From Actinophytocola algeriensis (GTDB lineage: Bacteria; Actinomycetota; Actinomycetes; Mycobacteriales; Pseudonocardiaceae), in assembly GCF_014203735.1 (NCBI RefSeq), contig NZ_JACHJQ010000004.1, forward strand, positions 434,001-498,000: a stretch of 64,000 bases of DNA. The letters run 5' to 3'. The stretch's first letter is position 1. Every line of letters starts with the position of its first letter. The translations under genes and the position numbers were made by a program. Shown here one piece after another: positions 4,530 to 58,724 of the stretch. The notes below the pieces were generated by a model. It did not search any database, was not told the origin of the DNA, and worked only from the letters and a program-made list of their open reading frames with translations.

Positions 4530-5282
4530 TCAGCCCTTGGCGGGTGATGACCTGCGACGGCGGCGTGTGGGCAGCTCGATCAGCTGCTGCTCCTGCTCAC
4601 CGTCCGCGTCGCGCTGTTCGAGGTAGGACTTCCGTGTCCGCTCGGTGTGTTCCTGCATGATCCGGGCGGCGGCTTCGGCGTCCCTGTTCTCGATCGCGTC
4701 GATCAGCTTCGCGTGCTCCTGCCAGGACTGCTTGCCGCGCTGGCGGGCGATCGGCGTGTAGTACCACCGCACCCTGCGGTCCACCTGGGTCGCGAAGTCC
4801 AGCAGTACCTTGTTGCCAGAAAGCTCGGTCACGCAACGGTGTACCGCCGCGTTCAGCGCCACCGCGGTGTCCACGTCGTCCGCCGCCAGTGCCTCGAAAC
4901 CCTGTTTGTTGAGGTCCCGCAGGCGCGCGATGCCCTCCTCGTCGGCCTGGGTCGCCGCCAAGCGTGCCGACTCGCTCTCGAGGAGCGATCGCACGGCGAG
5001 CAACTGGTCCGCCTCGTCGGGGGTCGGCTGGTGCACGAACGCGCCGTAGCCGGGCCGCAGGTCCACCCAGCCCTCGTTGTTCAGCCACTGCAGTGCCTCA
5101 CGCACGGGCTGACGGGAGACCCCGAGCATCTGCGCCAGTTCACTCTCGACGAGGTGCTGGCCGGGGGCCAGTCGCCGGGAGATGATCAGCTCCTGCATCG
5201 CCTGGTAGACGTGTTCACGCAGGGGCACCGGCCGATCGATCCGGCGAGCCGCCAGTTCCTTTGGCAACTCGGTCGGCTGCAT
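4530..5282 (-). CDS. FadR-type GntR family transcriptional regulator, likely controlling the glyoxylate genes
   Basis: 250 residues. A winged helix-turn-helix at about residues 17-82 (LREHVYQAMQELIISRRLAPG, then ESELAQMLGVSRQPVREAL) is followed by an all-helical FCD ligand domain with the metal-binding pattern around NAAVHRCVTELSGN. The C-terminus is a basic tail (RRRRRSS). FadR-type members sense small carboxylates. The ATG at 5282 has GGAG six bases before it; longer in-frame starts lack a site. The word GCATACAGTC lies in its own upstream region (5352-5361) and again between the OFA carrier and sucC (12166-12175), so autoregulation and control of that divergent operon are inferred. Confidence 0.85.
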   Translation of the reverse strand: MQPTELPKELAARRIDRPVPLREHVYQAMQELIISRRLAPGQHLVESELAQMLGVSRQPVREALQWLNNEGWVDLRPGYGAFVHQPTPDEADQLLAVRSLLESESARLAATQADEEGIARLRDLNKQGFEALAADDVDTAVALNAAVHRCVTELSGNKVLLDFATQVDRRVRWYYTPIARQRGKQSWQEHAKLIDAIENRDAEAAARIMQEHTERTRKSYLEQRDADGEQEQQLIELPTRRRRRSSPAKG

Positions 5283-54228: not shown

Positions 54229-54873
54229 ATGACGGACTCATCGACGCGGGACCGGCTGCTGGCCGCGGCCGGCGAACTGCTGACGGAGTCACCGGACGTG
54301 TCGACCCGCGCCATCTGCGACCGCGCGGGCGTGCAGGCACCCACGCTGTACCACTACTTCGGCAACAAGCAGGGCCTGCTGGCCGCGGTGGTGGACACCG
54401 TGTTCACGTTCCACATGGGCACGATGGCCGCCAGCGGCGACCCGGTCGCCGCGCTGCGGGAGAGCTGGGACCACCACGTCCGCTTCGGCCTCGCCAACCC
54501 GAACCACTACGCGCTGACGAGCACCCTCATGCCGGCGGCGGAGAAGCTGCTCACGGTCCTGCTGAACGACATCGCACGACAGGGCAGGCTCAGCACGGCC
54601 CCTGAGGTGGCGGCGAAGCAACTGGTGGCGGCGAACGTCGGCGCGACACTGAGCCTCCTCGACGGCGATCGGGAGCTGGGGTGGTCCGACCAGCTGCGCG
54701 ACACGGTGATCGGCGCGGTGGTCACCGGGGCGATCCAGCCGCTGGCCGGCGGGGGCCTGTCCGCGCTGGCGGTGGGTTTCCTCGCCGCGCTGGACACCGA
54801 ACCGGCCGACTTCACGACCGGTGAGCGCACGTTGCTGCGCGAATGGCTCCACCGAGCAGCGGTGCGCAGGTAG
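54229..54873 (+). CDS. TetR family repressor
   Basis: 214 residues. The helix-turn-helix is TRAICDRAGVQAPTLYHYFG followed by NKQGLLAAVVD, classical TetR. A helical ligand domain follows. No ribosome site; TATCTT (54217-54222) lies six bases before the ATG, so the message is probably leaderless and starts inside the narrow 17-base gap shared with the SDR. It should repress both. Confidence 0.9.
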   Translation: MTDSSTRDRLLAAAGELLTESPDVSTRAICDRAGVQAPTLYHYFGNKQGLLAAVVDTVFTFHMGTMAASGDPVAALRESWDHHVRFGLANPNHYALTSTLMPAAEKLLTVLLNDIARQGRLSTAPEVAAKQLVAANVGATLSLLDGDRELGWSDQLRDTVIGAVVTGAIQPLAGGGLSALAVGFLAALDTEPADFTTGERTLLREWLHRAAVRR

Positions 54874-54971
54874 CAGACCCCGAACCTCAGGACCGGCGTC
54901 GCGGTGTCCACCGTGGAGCATGGGAGCTGCCGGCAGGACCGGTCCCGGCGCCAGCCTGTTGTGCTTCCCGC

Positions 54972-55517
54972 ATGGACGAGGTGGCGCGGCTCGTGCGGGC
55001 GCTGGTGGACGACGACGAGACCGTGCGCCTGCGGGGAATCGCCGGTCTGGCACGGTTTCCGCACCACCCCGGCGCGGTCGACGAGCTGATGGAGTCGCTG
55101 AAGAACGACCTCCTCGGAGAGTTGGCGATCACCGCGGCGGTGGCGCTCGCCGACATGGCTCGCGTCAACCCCGCGGTGACCGGCGCGGTCGCCCGGCGGT
55201 TCCGGGAGACCGTCGGCAGCGTCGCGCTCTGCGGCAGCTACGACCCCACCCTGCGCCTGACCTACTTCTTCGCGGTCTCCGGTGACCGAGCCTGGTTCCG
55301 CGAGCTGCGTCCCGCCGACCTGCGCGCGCGGACCGACGAGTTCCGCACGCGAACGGCCCGGTACCTGGCCGCGGGACGGGATGGTGACGTCCGTGCCGCG
55401 GCCAGGTCGATGGTGTGGTTCGAGTCGCTCGAGTCCGCGCGGGTGTTCCGGGCGGCCCGCAGACAGCTCCCGGGGTGGCGCCCCTGGTTCCGGCAGCTGA
55501 TCCGCGCCACCCGCTAG
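54972..55517 (+). CDS. hypothetical helical-repeat protein
   Basis: 181 residues. HEAT-like helices in residues 4-85 (MDEVARLVRALVDDDETVRL, then GIAGLARFPHHPGAVDELME) are followed by a region rich in aromatic and arginine residues (GDRAWFRELRPADLRARTDE). I do not recognise it. The start is uncertain: no ribosome site is seen at 54972 and a longer frame upstream is low-complexity. Its TAG stop is the left junction of a MITE. Confidence 0.55.
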   Translation: MDEVARLVRALVDDDETVRLRGIAGLARFPHHPGAVDELMESLKNDLLGELAITAAVALADMARVNPAVTGAVARRFRETVGSVALCGSYDPTLRLTYFFAVSGDRAWFRELRPADLRARTDEFRTRTARYLAAGRDGDVRAAARSMVWFESLESARVFRAARRQLPGWRPWFRQLIRATR

Positions 55518-55681
55518 TGTCCCGCGCCGGAAATGCGGTGATTGAGTCGGTGGATCCAGGTTTCTGCTGGCAAGGCGCCGGTTCGTCCTCGTACTGTGAT
55601 CGTACTTGGGCGGACCGGCAACGCCGCCAGCAGGAAGCTGGGCCGCCGAATTAGTCGCCTGATTTCCGGCGCGGGACACTA
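55515..55681. mobile_element. 163-bp foldback MITE with TA target duplication (IS630-like)
   Basis: The element runs 55517-55679 and is flanked by TA on both sides (55515-55516 and 55680-55681), inside a CTAG context. Perfect terminal inverted repeats of 19 bases, GTGTCCCGCGCCGGAAAT on the left and ATTTCCGGCGCGGGACAC on the right, extend to 21 with the TA. The interior is also an imperfect long palindrome (CTGCTGGC at 55570, GCCAGCAG near 55627), so the whole element folds back. No transposase is encoded. TA duplication at CTAG is the hallmark of IS630-type elements. The CTAG gives TAG stop codons to the genes on both sides. Confidence 0.85.
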
Positions 55682-56107
55682 GTCGGCCACCAGCATGCGT
55701 CGGTGCCTGCCCGACTCCTGCTGCCTGCGCACCAGCCACCGCCCCGGCGCGACGCCGCTGCCACCGTGTTCCGGGTGGATCAGGTACACCGGCGCCGTGT
55801 TCTCGAACAGCGCGACGCCCAGCCTGAGCGGGTCCCGGAACTCGCCCGTCCACTGGCAGACACCGCGATCGGCGACCAGCGTGTGCGGGTTGCCGCCCGC
55901 CACGCCACGCACCAGCTCCACGCCCTGGCGCGGCACGGGCTGCCAGGAGGTCCACGAGTGGGTCGTCACCACCGGCACCATCGCCATGGGCACCACGATC
56001 AGGTCGCCCTGTGCCTGCGGGCCGTCGAGGACCGGCACCGCCACCTGGAGCTCGAGGTGGTCGAGGACGGAAAGTTCAGCACTGTCAAGGATTTCTGCGA
56101 GGTTCAT
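55679..56107 (-). CDS. hypothetical protein, partner of the DUF6745-like gene
   Basis: 142 residues, mixed alpha/beta, tryptophan- and arginine-containing (VTTHSWTSWQPVPRQGVELV), ending RRQQESGRHRRMLVAD. AGGTG lies six bases before the ATG at 56107. It starts 12 bases after the DUF6745-like stop, so the two are cotranscribed. No family is recognised. Its stop codon (CTA on the plus strand) is the right junction of the MITE. Confidence 0.65.
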   Translation of the reverse strand: MNLAEILDSAELSVLDHLELQVAVPVLDGPQAQGDLIVVPMAMVPVVTTHSWTSWQPVPRQGVELVRGVAGGNPHTLVADRGVCQWTGEFRDPLRLGVALFENTAPVYLIHPEHGGSGVAPGRWLVRRQQESGRHRRMLVAD

Positions 56108-56119
56108 GGTCATCACCTG

Positions 56120-57055
56120 TCAGGTTCGTCGGAGAAGTTGCTGGTACTGGCGGCCGGTGAGCCCGTAGGTCCACCCGGCGGCGTCGATCGGGTCGTCGAA
56201 CCACGGGGGCACGCGCAGTCCGTACCGGCGGCGGGTGCCGTCGCGCTCGACCGAGCCGTTCACCGCGAGCAGGAGCCGGGTCGGCCTGCCCCACCGCGCG
56301 TACGGCAGGTCGTAGAGCCGCAGCTCGGCGCCCGGGTTGCCGGGGTCGTCCGCACGGCCGACGGGCCGCAGCTCCGCCTGGTCGATGAACGCGTCCCACC
56401 CGATCCGCTCGATCGCGCACCGGCGCACCTCGACGTTGGTCTCGGCGGCGATGCGGTCCACCGTCGGGTCGTCGATCACCCACGACGGCACGCGCGTGCC
56501 GTGCCAGGCGTGGACGGTGAACCCGTCCGGGTACGCCACCGCGGGCCCGTCGGCGCAGTGCAGCCGCAGGTCACGGTCGTCACCGGGTTCGGTGTGCTGC
56601 ACGAGCGGCCGTTCGGACAGCACGCACACCTGTTCTCGCGGCCACCACCAGCCACAGGAACGGGTGATCGTCGCCCACGGGTTCGGTTCGTGGACGTGCA
56701 CCACCCAGTGGATGTCGTGCTGGCCGTGCCAGTGCAGGCCGAGCGACGTGCCGACGGCGGCCCGGATCATCGCCACCACCGGTCCGACTCCGGTCATGAG
56801 CTGTTTCCTCGGCAACCGGTTGCGCAGTTCGGAGATCTTCGTGGCGAGCCGCGACTCGAACAGCACGGGCCCGTCGGAGAACAACGGCGGTGACGGTGGC
56901 ACCACGGTCGCGGCGGCCGAGGGGGAACCCACCCAGACGAACTCGGGTGGCGGGGTGTTCAGCTCGGTGTAGAGCTGGGAGATGGCCGCTTCTGCGGCGG
57001 GACGGTCAGCGGGATCGGTGCACAGCGCGTGGTTCAGCCACGCGGCGGCGCTCAT
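56120..57055 (-). CDS. DUF6745-like protein
   Basis: 311 residues. The C-terminal half has the pattern LHCADGPAVAYPDGFTVHAW then HGTRVPSWVIDDP and VEVRRCAIERIGWDAFI, which follows the DUF6745 repeat-like signature found in actinobacterial proteins of unknown function. The N-terminal half is variable with WHGQHDIHWVVHVHEPNP. No signal or membrane helix. It heads a two-gene unit with the 142-residue protein. Confidence 0.65.
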   Translation of the reverse strand: MSAAAWLNHALCTDPADRPAAEAAISQLYTELNTPPPEFVWVGSPSAAATVVPPSPPLFSDGPVLFESRLATKISELRNRLPRKQLMTGVGPVVAMIRAAVGTSLGLHWHGQHDIHWVVHVHEPNPWATITRSCGWWWPREQVCVLSERPLVQHTEPGDDRDLRLHCADGPAVAYPDGFTVHAWHGTRVPSWVIDDPTVDRIAAETNVEVRRCAIERIGWDAFIDQAELRPVGRADDPGNPGAELRLYDLPYARWGRPTRLLLAVNGSVERDGTRRRYGLRVPPWFDDPIDAAGWTYGLTGRQYQQLLRRT

Positions 57056-57188
57056 GCGCTGTGGGCGTACACGCCCTTTCCGTGAGACATGTGGACCATG
57101 GTCGCACAGCCTGTCAACGGACGCGGCGCCCGCGCAGGATCACGGCGGCGGGCGCGGCGAGCTGGTCGAGGTCGGTGCGCGGGTCCTC

Positions 57189-58157
57189 CTAGTAGACGAC
57201 CGCGTCCGCGGGTGCGCCCGGCACCAGCCCGGGCAGGCCCAGGTACTCGCGGGCCGACCAGGACGCGGCGGCGAGCGCGTCGTGCGGTCGCAGTCCCGCG
57301 GCGGCCAGTGCGCGCACCTCGTCGAGAATTCGCCCGTGTGGCACGGAATCGGTGCCCGCGAGTATCGGCACCCCGGCCTCCGCCGCAGCGGCGACGAGCC
57401 CCGGGTGCGCGCTCGCACCCTCGACGTACCACCGTTTGCGCGGGCTGTCTTCGCGCTCGCGCACCGCCGCGAGCGAGTTCCGCAGCGTCGCGAGCGTGGG
57501 TGTGAGCACGGTGCCGCGTGCCGCCATGTCGTTCAGCAGTGCGGGATCCAGGCACATGCCGTGCTCGACCGAGTCGACCCCGGCGGCGACCGCGACCGCG
57601 CCGCCGTCGGCCTGCTGGCTGTGCACGGCGACCCGGCCACCCACCTCGTGCACGGCCGCGACGACCGCGGTCAGCACGTCGAGGGGGACCACGTCGTCGC
57701 CAACGCGCCAGTCGCCGATGATCTTGGCCCACCCGGTGCGCCGTGCTTGCGCGGCGGCGACGGCGGGCAGGTCGGCGTGGGAGGGACGACGGCCCCACCC
57801 TTCGAAGAACTGGTCCTGCTGCGCGAGCCACGGCCCGGCGTGCCAGGCCCTCGGCACGTCCGGGTCGGTGCCGAACCACGCGGGCGGGTCGGCGGCCAGG
57901 CCGGGGGAGCGGATCGCGGTGACGCCCGCGTCGACGTGCTGGTGCAGGTGCTCGCGCAGCAGGTCGTGGTCGAGCGGGTCGCCGGGTTGCTCCGCGCCGG
58001 GATGGGTGTGCGCGTCGACGAGTCCGGGCAGGAGCCAGCCCTGCGCCACCACTTCCGCGCCGGGCACGGGGTCGGTGGTCCACCGGTCGCCGTCGGCGAA
58101 GAGGTCGACGGGTTCGCCGTGTGGGAGCGCGAAACCCCGCACCCGGATCGCGCTCAC
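57189..58157 (-). CDS. amidohydrolase-type metal-dependent hydrolase, cut by a late amber codon
   Basis: 322 residues to the TAG at 57189-57191. Metal-binding HTH motif in LVDAHTHPGAEQ, GWAKIIGDWR, then VAVHSQQADGGAVAVAAGVD, SVEHGMCLD and ILAGTDSVPHG give a complete amidohydrolase barrel (imidazolonepropionase/prolidase-like branch). Past the stop, the frame continues without break as EDPRTDLDQLAAPAAVILRG then RRVR to a TGA at 57114-57116, exactly the C-terminal strand these proteins normally have. So the gene has lost its last 24 residues by a nonsense codon, or is read through. The GTG start overlaps the GNAT stop. Confidence 0.8.
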   Translation of the reverse strand: MSAIRVRGFALPHGEPVDLFADGDRWTTDPVPGAEVVAQGWLLPGLVDAHTHPGAEQPGDPLDHDLLREHLHQHVDAGVTAIRSPGLAADPPAWFGTDPDVPRAWHAGPWLAQQDQFFEGWGRRPSHADLPAVAAAQARRTGWAKIIGDWRVGDDVVPLDVLTAVVAAVHEVGGRVAVHSQQADGGAVAVAAGVDSVEHGMCLDPALLNDMAARGTVLTPTLATLRNSLAAVREREDSPRKRWYVEGASAHPGLVAAAAEAGVPILAGTDSVPHGRILDEVRALAAAGLRPHDALAAASWSAREYLGLPGLVPGAPADAVVY

Positions 58158-58687
58158 TCCGTCAGGTCGCTCGGCCGGATGCGGAACACCTGCAGGCGCA
58201 GGTTGTAGTACTTGTCGGTCTCGCCGACCCACGTCATCCCGAGCCGCTTCGCGGTCGCGACCGCGCGGTTGTTGGTCGGCCGGGCGACGGCGAACAGCTC
58301 GTCGATCTCCTGCGTGAACGCCCAGCTCGCGAGCGCGTGGCCGCCTTCCGCCGCGTAGCCGTGGCCCCAGGCGTCCGGACGCAGCTGCCAGCTCAGCTCC
58401 AGGTCCTCTTTGTACGGTGGCAGCAGCCGGATGCCGAGACCCCCGATGACCTCGCCGTCGTCGCGGCGTTCGATCGCCCAGCGGCCGCGCGGGGACGGCA
58501 TGTTCTGTTGCGCCTCGATCCACGCCTGCAGCACCGCCCGCATCGCCGCCTCGTCGGCGACCTGGCCCATCGCGGGGGTCAGCCAGCGGGTGACCTTCTC
58601 CACGCCGTAGATCGCGAGCGCCGAGGCGGCGTCGTCGAGCCGCCACTCCCGCACCACGAGCCGCTCGGTGGTCAGCTCTTCGCTCAT
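58154..58687 (-). CDS. GNAT family acetyltransferase (RimJ/RimL type)
   Basis: 177 residues. The RimJ/RimL-like start SEELTTERLVVREWRLDDAA, the acetyl-CoA pyrophosphate loop QLRPDAWGHGYAAEGGHAL and NRAVATAKRLGMTWVGE are present. It acetylates an amine: a protein N-terminus or a small molecule. Overlaps the amidohydrolase start by four bases. It is divergent from the aldo/keto reductase. Confidence 0.88.
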   Translation of the reverse strand: MSEELTTERLVVREWRLDDAASALAIYGVEKVTRWLTPAMGQVADEAAMRAVLQAWIEAQQNMPSPRGRWAIERRDDGEVIGGLGIRLLPPYKEDLELSWQLRPDAWGHGYAAEGGHALASWAFTQEIDELFAVARPTNNRAVATAKRLGMTWVGETDKYYNLRLQVFRIRPSDLTE

Positions 58688-58724
58688 GGTCCCGACATTA
58701 CCCACGGCGCGGTGGTAGCAGTGA

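Follow-up and report, generated by a model that had tools for sequence, protein, structure and literature searches.

Bacterial MITEs are usually viewed as deletion remnants of one insertion sequence (IS), and foldback MITEs with IS630 ends inserted at TA are already known. IS630 of Shigella sonnei is autonomous and carries its transposase gene, and a 2006 paper on YPAL of Yersinia reportedly placed its insertions directly after stop codons. The RUP of pneumococcus, for which IS630-Spn1 is the proposed mover, and the Correia/NEMIS elements are described in PMC2229807 as shorter than 200 bp, coding for no protein and mostly intergenic, with terminal repeats, TA ends and a stable hairpin. YPAL, also called RU-2, is presented as a palindromic, mobile and intergenic element of 168 bp in PMC2759123 and PMC2229807. 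The S. sonnei IS630 prefers the TA within CTAG, as indicated by the title of a 1991 paper (Tenzen and Ohtsubo) cited in PMC2170065. According to PMC11677980, the 4-bp site duplicated by IS5 is C(A/T)A(G/A), and its copies include some at CTAA or CTAG; most of the IS427-group members listed in PMC3281130 duplicate 2 bp.

The window analyzed here, a stretch of 64,000 nucleotides from Actinophytocola algeriensis, reads CTAG-element-CTAG from 55514 to 55682 (Table 1). This element resembles RUP and Correia/NEMIS in all the features listed above, but differs from them in its target, CTAG, which is often a stop codon, and in a core that is found across phyla and also with IS5-type ends. It is like YPAL/RU-2 in the four respects given, but the RU-2 sequence printed in PMC2759123 lacks, by eye, both the CTAG ends and the CAAGGCG/CAACGC motif, and on this comparison the similarity was too low to place the element in that family. 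The preference for TA in CTAG is shared with the S. sonnei IS630. The likeness to the IS5 family lies in the IS5-type ends of core-bearing MITEs of A. xanthii and of a Thiodiazotropha bin, whereas the ends of the window element itself do not match those of this family. Our best explanation, to which we give a probability of roughly 0.8, is a non-autonomous CTAG-targeting MITE moved in trans by IS630, within a wider superfamily defined by a foldable core. An IS630-family (DDE_3, Tc1/mariner-like) transposase supplied in trans would recognize the ends of about 20 bp and insert the element at the TA within CTAG, probably duplicating this TA rather than four bases. The element starts with G and ends with C, so that CTAG is rebuilt on both sides and genes ending there keep their stops.

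Table 1. Positions of the element, its parts and the adjoining genes in the window
Feature	Position	Strand	Remark
MITE proper, 163 bp	55517..55679	.	Sequence, copies, ends, empty sites
Left CTAG	55514..55517	+	TAG at 55515-55517 ends the rightward gene
Left copy of the putative target duplication (TA)	55515..55516		Inside the left CTAG
Right CTAG	55679..55682	-	55679-55681, read as minus strand, ends the leftward gene
Second copy of the putative target duplication (TA)	55680..55681		Inside the right CTAG
Left terminal repeat with CTAG	55514..55534	+	Match to IS630-family ends
Right terminal repeat with CTAG	55662..55682	-	
Conserved structured core	55547..55649	+	Query positions 34-136
Core motif, 5' half	55566..55577	+	Stem, AA bulge, GGCG
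Core motif, 3' half	55619..55631	+	CAA, CGCC, stem
Inner helix of 8 pairs, 5' side	55578..55585	+	Pairs with 55611-55618
Inner helix of 8 pairs, 3' side	55611..55618	+	
Rightward gene	54972..55517	+	Weakly HEAT-repeat-like, under the Pfam cut-off
Leftward gene, 145 aa	55679..56116	-	Pfam: no match

A preliminary description of the window had proposed a 163-bp foldback MITE lying between two convergent stops, with perfect terminal repeats at CTAG. The sequence, the ends of the open reading frames (ORFs) and the fold all agree with this. The rightward ORF (54843-55517, with the gene start at 54972 deduced from the A. oryzae ortholog) terminates in the left TAG and the leftward one (55679-56116) in the right TAG. 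The ends are perfect inverted repeats of 21 nt, a pattern for which chance predicts 0.01 occurrences in the window when up to 3 mismatches are allowed, and 163 bp is too short for a transposase gene. The folding energy of the strand is -141.9 kcal/mol, compared with -83.4 ± 4.3 in shuffled sequences (z = -13.5). The interior is not "fully palindromic," as had been stated: the 40-nt arms are 83% complementary and the center is partly unpaired, at positions that are kept in relatives.

Further copies, which the same description had suggested looking for, are present in the genome of the window, hereafter G000 (an Actinophytocola species, 9.73 Mb, about 98% complete). It carries ten full copies, including that of the window, with 95 to 100% identity to the window copy and pairwise identities of 0.907 to 0.988; nine of them have CTAG on both flanks, and the right flank of the tenth (L002) is CCAG. 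Two forms of 81 bp (CTAGs counted), bounded by CTAG, retain only the ends. Three diverged relatives (L011, L013 and L016) have a core-like interior and diverged ends; the core model built later recovered the first two but not L016, in which the bulge motif is lost. No relatives of the window element were found in plasmids by blastn. Two lone MITE ends, probably remnants of deleted copies, were also observed in G000: at C7:194503 (L068 2524, minus strand) the CTAG is the stop of a class-III aminotransferase ORF, and at C10:176508 (L069 2509, plus strand) that of a TauD-like ORF. The ORF lists show no evident transposase beside either.

The proposed IS630-type ends and CTAG target are supported by elements of the family. 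Using a transposase piece of an IS630 element of G003 as a query, we found IS630 relatives in 32 of 150 Pseudonocardiaceae genomes. In 20 of the 29 loci examined, the best TA-bounded pair of ends had CTAG on both sides; the other nine had best ends that were not in CTAG on both sides or had no good ends. Three loci (L268 to L270) match the ends of the window element at 20 of 21 bases at the better end and 19 to 20 at the other, and the protein of L269 matches DDE_3 (E = 4.6e−18). The expected parental IS630 of the same genome was not recovered, since no IS630 with window-type ends was found in G000 at its completeness of about 98%; the source enzyme is therefore absent, unassembled or lost. 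Several IS630 loci of the genus have CTAG ends, but their inner ends differ, and we rejected them as direct parents. In one bin (L076, 1308-2468), a MITE core is attached to, or interrupts, an IS630 transposase region toward the 5' side of the latter, and one end reads CTAGTGTGCTGAGTTGGAAGTT.

The state of the target before insertion was approached by joining each of ten flank pairs by a single CTAG and searching 41 genomes. In A. oryzae, a single CTAG and no element were found at three of the sites (L005, L007 and L003), and A. xanthii gave the same result at that of L006. When stops were called at empty and filled sites by the same open-frame and GC3 rule, genes ended at the empty CTAG on exactly those sides where they end at the filled one (both sides for L005 and L007, left for L003, right for L006). 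Filled sites have two CTAGs and empty ones a single CTAG, an outcome predicted equally by a 2-bp TA and a 4-bp CTAG duplication. The alignment spanned a single flank in the case of L001 and L010 (both A. oryzae) and L017 (G003), and the L006 site in G163 gave an alignment gapped around a CTAG. Diverged orthologous sites showed no CTAG at the aligned junction for L008 (TTAG) and L003 in A. xanthii and for L006 in G023, where CTAG may never have been present. At the L008 site of G003, a bin, the MITE of that species sits after the same stop. As for the window site in A. oryzae, the ortholog of the rightward gene terminates at a CTAG that doubles as the stop of a leftward GNAT acetyltransferase gene. 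The counterpart of the latter lies at 58154-58705 of the window, with a stretch of about 2.5 kb between it and the element. This segment (55683-58153) holds the 145-aa gene, a DUF6745 gene and an amidohydrolase, and is absent between the A. oryzae orthologs. The idea that insertion preserved the gene stops is supported by the empty sites, where a single CTAG carries the stops found after insertion. A target CTAG that was the stop of two convergent genes is seen for L005 and L007 and, with a different right-hand partner, for the window site.

CTAG is rare in G000: 81 occurrences in 464 kb, against about 1,235 expected from base composition, a depletion of about 15-fold. Moreover, 36 of the 79 testable control CTAGs of this genome are a gene stop, and 8 of the 79 are the stop of two convergent genes. 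Gene stops were called by the open-frame and GC3 rule rather than by annotation, a rule that fails in low-GC genomes, and the statistics were restricted to copies with CTAG at both ends (omitting 1 of 10 loci in G000, 1 of 1 in G001, 0 of 11 in G002, 1 of 7 in G003 and 14 of 33 in G004). At least one stop was found in 8 of 9 such copies of G000 and two stops in 5 of 9 (one-sided Fisher test; P = 0.015 and P = 0.003). The corresponding values were 9/11 and 4/11 in A. oryzae. In G003, of whose more than 30 matches 7 were inspected, they were 4/6 and 1/6. In A. xanthii they were 9/19 and 1/19, versus 6/21 and 2/21 in the control, and the stop-codon excess (9/19 versus 6/21) was not significant. 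Pooling the four species gave 30/45 and 11/45, versus 42/100 and 10/100 for control CTAGs drawn from G000 and G004 only (one-sided P = 0.005 and P = 0.024).

The base rate of CTAG, together with the copy counts, indicates that CTAG targeting accounts for much of the placement, although the copies of G000 exceed that base rate. The corresponding account, in which insertion is specific for CTAG, CTAG survives mainly at gene ends and the element is neutral there, is one we consider fairly probable, and it is compatible with a MITE moved by IS630. The control CTAGs, so often stops of one or even both convergent genes, speak for it, as do the A. xanthii copies, which are not significantly above control. 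The G000 copies and the pooled set lie above control and speak against it, but this excess may come from the loss of harmful, intragenic insertions. Thus, with a target so rare and so often at stops, CTAG targeting followed by a presumed loss of harmful insertions would put copies at gene ends. The first interpretation of the locus was partly supported, but had missed this base-rate effect as well as the core conserved across phyla.

This core emerged when the genus was searched with the window element. All six genomes gave matches, many of them limited to about positions 34-136 of the query. The lone match in G005, 32 nt long, appears to be fortuitous, and the core model gave no hit in that genome, which leaves the core in five of the six genomes. 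When five species were compared, each through one representative element, identity extended to 62 of 103 core positions, 5 of 57 outer-arm positions and 7 of 8 CTAG positions; the arms are still self-complementary, and the lengths are 168 to 170. The exact core pattern occurs in at least 118 stretches of named genomes. Among the sources are isolates of Pseudonocardia, Kribbella, Nocardioides, Actinocatenispora, Rhodoferax, Pelomonas, Herbaspirillum and Andreprevotia, and bins labeled Planctomycetota, Verrucomicrobia, Thermoanaerobaculia, Vicinamibacteraceae, Myxococcota, Clostridia and others; source titles are known for 80 of the 118 loci, and many of the cross-phylum rows are metagenome bins. 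The architecture recurs across phyla, with lengths of 160 to 171 bp (about 166), arms of 49 to 53 nt (about 52) and the C-AA-GGCG/CAA-CGC motif. Burkholderiales forms differ in that their paired arms are shorter, and CTAG ends are missing from several single copies of proteobacteria. An end finder that favors CTAG through a bonus, so that its counts lean that way, placed CTAG at both ends of 31 elements, at one end of 9 and at neither end of 57 (n = 97), a further 22 of the 119 matches being too near a contig end. With 19 candidates scored per genome, and with its training genomes among the positives, the core model had hits in 34 of 200 genomes of Pseudonocardiaceae, which represent 16 of 46 genera, and in 3 of 198 of Actinomycetota, that of the window included. 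In the Burkholderiales form (L082, L083, L095, L099 and similar loci), the left end is like CCTAGAAACCG and there is an extra 3' hairpin. The ends of L115 are nearly symmetric (CTCGATCCGGCAGTTGG and CTAGATCCGGCAGTTGG). A single exact core match was found in viral contigs (L425, 287-349).

No Rfam family matched the window element at gathering score, the best there being isrG (15.9 bits versus 100). In the loci of 18 relatives, Rfam gave four matches: two tRNAs, a cobalamin riboswitch and ASdes. The last was rejected as an identity for the core, as it lies at 1738-1805 of L186 and the core at 2422-2483. A cross-phylum core with exchangeable ends was found neither in Rfam nor in the literature searched, a weak absence since the search covered open-licence papers only.

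To study the fold, 155 cores were thinned by similarity to 48, of which 45 were aligned (L126, L141 and L167 were omitted). The exact-pattern scan fixes 25 core bases, which are invariant in alignment A1 because the pattern chose the rows. For the 26-pair structure, the covariation over the 45 sequences was 0.418, versus 0.122 ± 0.011 in shuffled alignments (0 of 500 shuffles); ten of the pairs are invariable because the search pattern fixes them. When the structure was slid along the alignment, the covariation was at most 0.131. The inner helix has Watson-Crick or G-U pairs in the window element and partly G.A pairs in other members. From position 1 to position 8, Watson-Crick, G-U or G.A pairs were formed in 44, 45, 42, 43, 39, 42, 41 and 38 of the 45 sequences, compared with about 23 to 32 expected by shuffling. 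G.A pairs were raised at most of these positions, e.g., 17 versus 9.5 at position 2 and 21 versus 12.0 at position 5, and hardly raised at position 7 (8 versus 6.1) and position 8 (20 versus 19.1). In the arms, they showed no overall rise. The 23 hits of the core model, which are free of the exact pattern, vary in the outer stem and mostly keep its pairing; they also mostly keep C-AA-GGCG and CAA-CGC, with one base off in each of L408, L411 and L416. Covariation, G.A pairs and the kept motif together speak for selection on a folded single strand. We also considered a kink-turn, but the order of the bulge and the G.A pairs does not seem to fit one.

A functionless core, left over from a common ancestral MITE whose arms followed the changing ends of transposases, would agree with the patchy spread (34 of 200 Pseudonocardiaceae and 3 of 198 Actinomycetota genomes), as expected of a mobile element without host function. 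We consider this unlikely, since the bulge motif and the pairing are kept across phyla despite changes in the surrounding sequence and the mismatches of the inner helix are mainly G.A.

Doubtful to a similar degree is the view that the element is kept because its folded core acts as RNA where host messages end, whether as a 3' terminator, as a substrate of RNase III or as a stabilizer. The very stable fold, the covariation with its G.A pairs, the position beside stops and one Rhodoferax member directly after groEL are consistent with such a role. Yet the G.A pairs make the two strands unequal, and no orientation bias was observed. Of 84 distinct CTAG-bounded sites, 36 had no gene stop (low-GC genomes, where the stop rule fails, being counted here), 14 had two and 34 had one. 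Relative to the single adjacent stop, the element was in sense in 14 cases and in antisense in 20 (P = 0.39). No terminator pattern was found, and none of the ten full copies has a T run longer than 2 within 12 bases beyond either end. The absence of orientation bias and of a terminator pattern leaves a role in host transcription unsupported, including the "bidirectional terminator" that had been suggested. The Rhodoferax hairpin (Rhodoferax sp. OV413, L089 at about 4600-4730) bears the core shortly 3' of the stop of a GroEL-like frame, and is possibly a domesticated copy. A role for the element itself, either as single-stranded DNA in replication or transposition or as a trans-acting RNA, is a better guess; we infer that the single-strand fold is selected, more likely for the success of the element than for host transcription.

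The ends associated with the core are not always of the IS630 type. In A. xanthii, an IS5-type element (with DUF4096 and DDE_Tnp_1 frames) has a CTAG in common with a 168-bp core-bearing MITE (L226), and their ends agree at 19 to 22 of 24 bases, which identifies those of the MITE as IS5-type. In the Thiodiazotropha bin (G006), core MITEs start with CTAGGGGGTGTTCTCAATTACC and an element found at contig ends starts with CTAGGGGGCGTTCTCAATTAAGG; the end of the latter agrees with that of a similar MITE (L168) at 19 of 24 bases. At its other end, this partly read transposase element encodes TRYERLAITYQAMLSLVATVIWLN, which closely resembles the C terminus of the complete IS5-type element L217. Taken with the IS630 ends of the window element, these cases show one core with the ends of two unrelated transposase families. 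The core model matched 3 of the 34 IS loci and none inside an intact IS: the match in L226 is the adjacent MITE, that in L076 is part of a MITE attached to the IS, and that in L078 is weak and outside the IS. As no core lay inside an intact IS in these loci, the window element is best described as a MITE with IS630-type ends rather than as a proven deletion derivative of IS630; the search of the 34 loci revealed no parent from which the interior was derived by deletion. The L226 arrangement suggests that ends may be exchanged by recombination between abutting elements with a common CTAG. Other core-bearing loci (L407, L410 and L413) have ends like neither IS type (e.g., GGGTGGTCGGGTCGGGGC and GGCCGGTCCACGCGGGCC). 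That an IS5-type transposase, with a 4-bp CTAG duplication, moved the window copy itself is very improbable and we rejected it as an IS5-related MITE: G000 has an IS5-type locus with CTAG ends (L227) and in the sister species an IS5-type element adjoins a core-bearing MITE with similar ends, but the ends of L227 start with CTAGGGCGTGTCC and those of the window element are not of the IS5 type, matching IS630 ends at 20 of 21 bases.

The outer arms and ends would thus turn over, being of the IS630 type in some lineages and of the IS5 type in others. We tentatively propose that the core of about 65 to 100 nt, with its cross-strand A bulges and interchangeable Watson-Crick and G.A pairs, is a selected unit that crosses phyla and has repeatedly taken its ends from the CTAG-targeting transposase at hand, whether of the IS630 or of the IS5 type; a conserved history with slow turnover of the core would be another account of its conservation. 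In this family, the interior outlasts the ends and keeps a detailed fold over phyla, with the ends of two transposase families at one rare target. By targeting a tetranucleotide that is both rare and often part of a gene stop, a mobile element obtains safe sites. If our proposal is true, one module parasitizes unrelated transposases via a common target site, which would make the MITE, and not the parent IS, the long-lived lineage.
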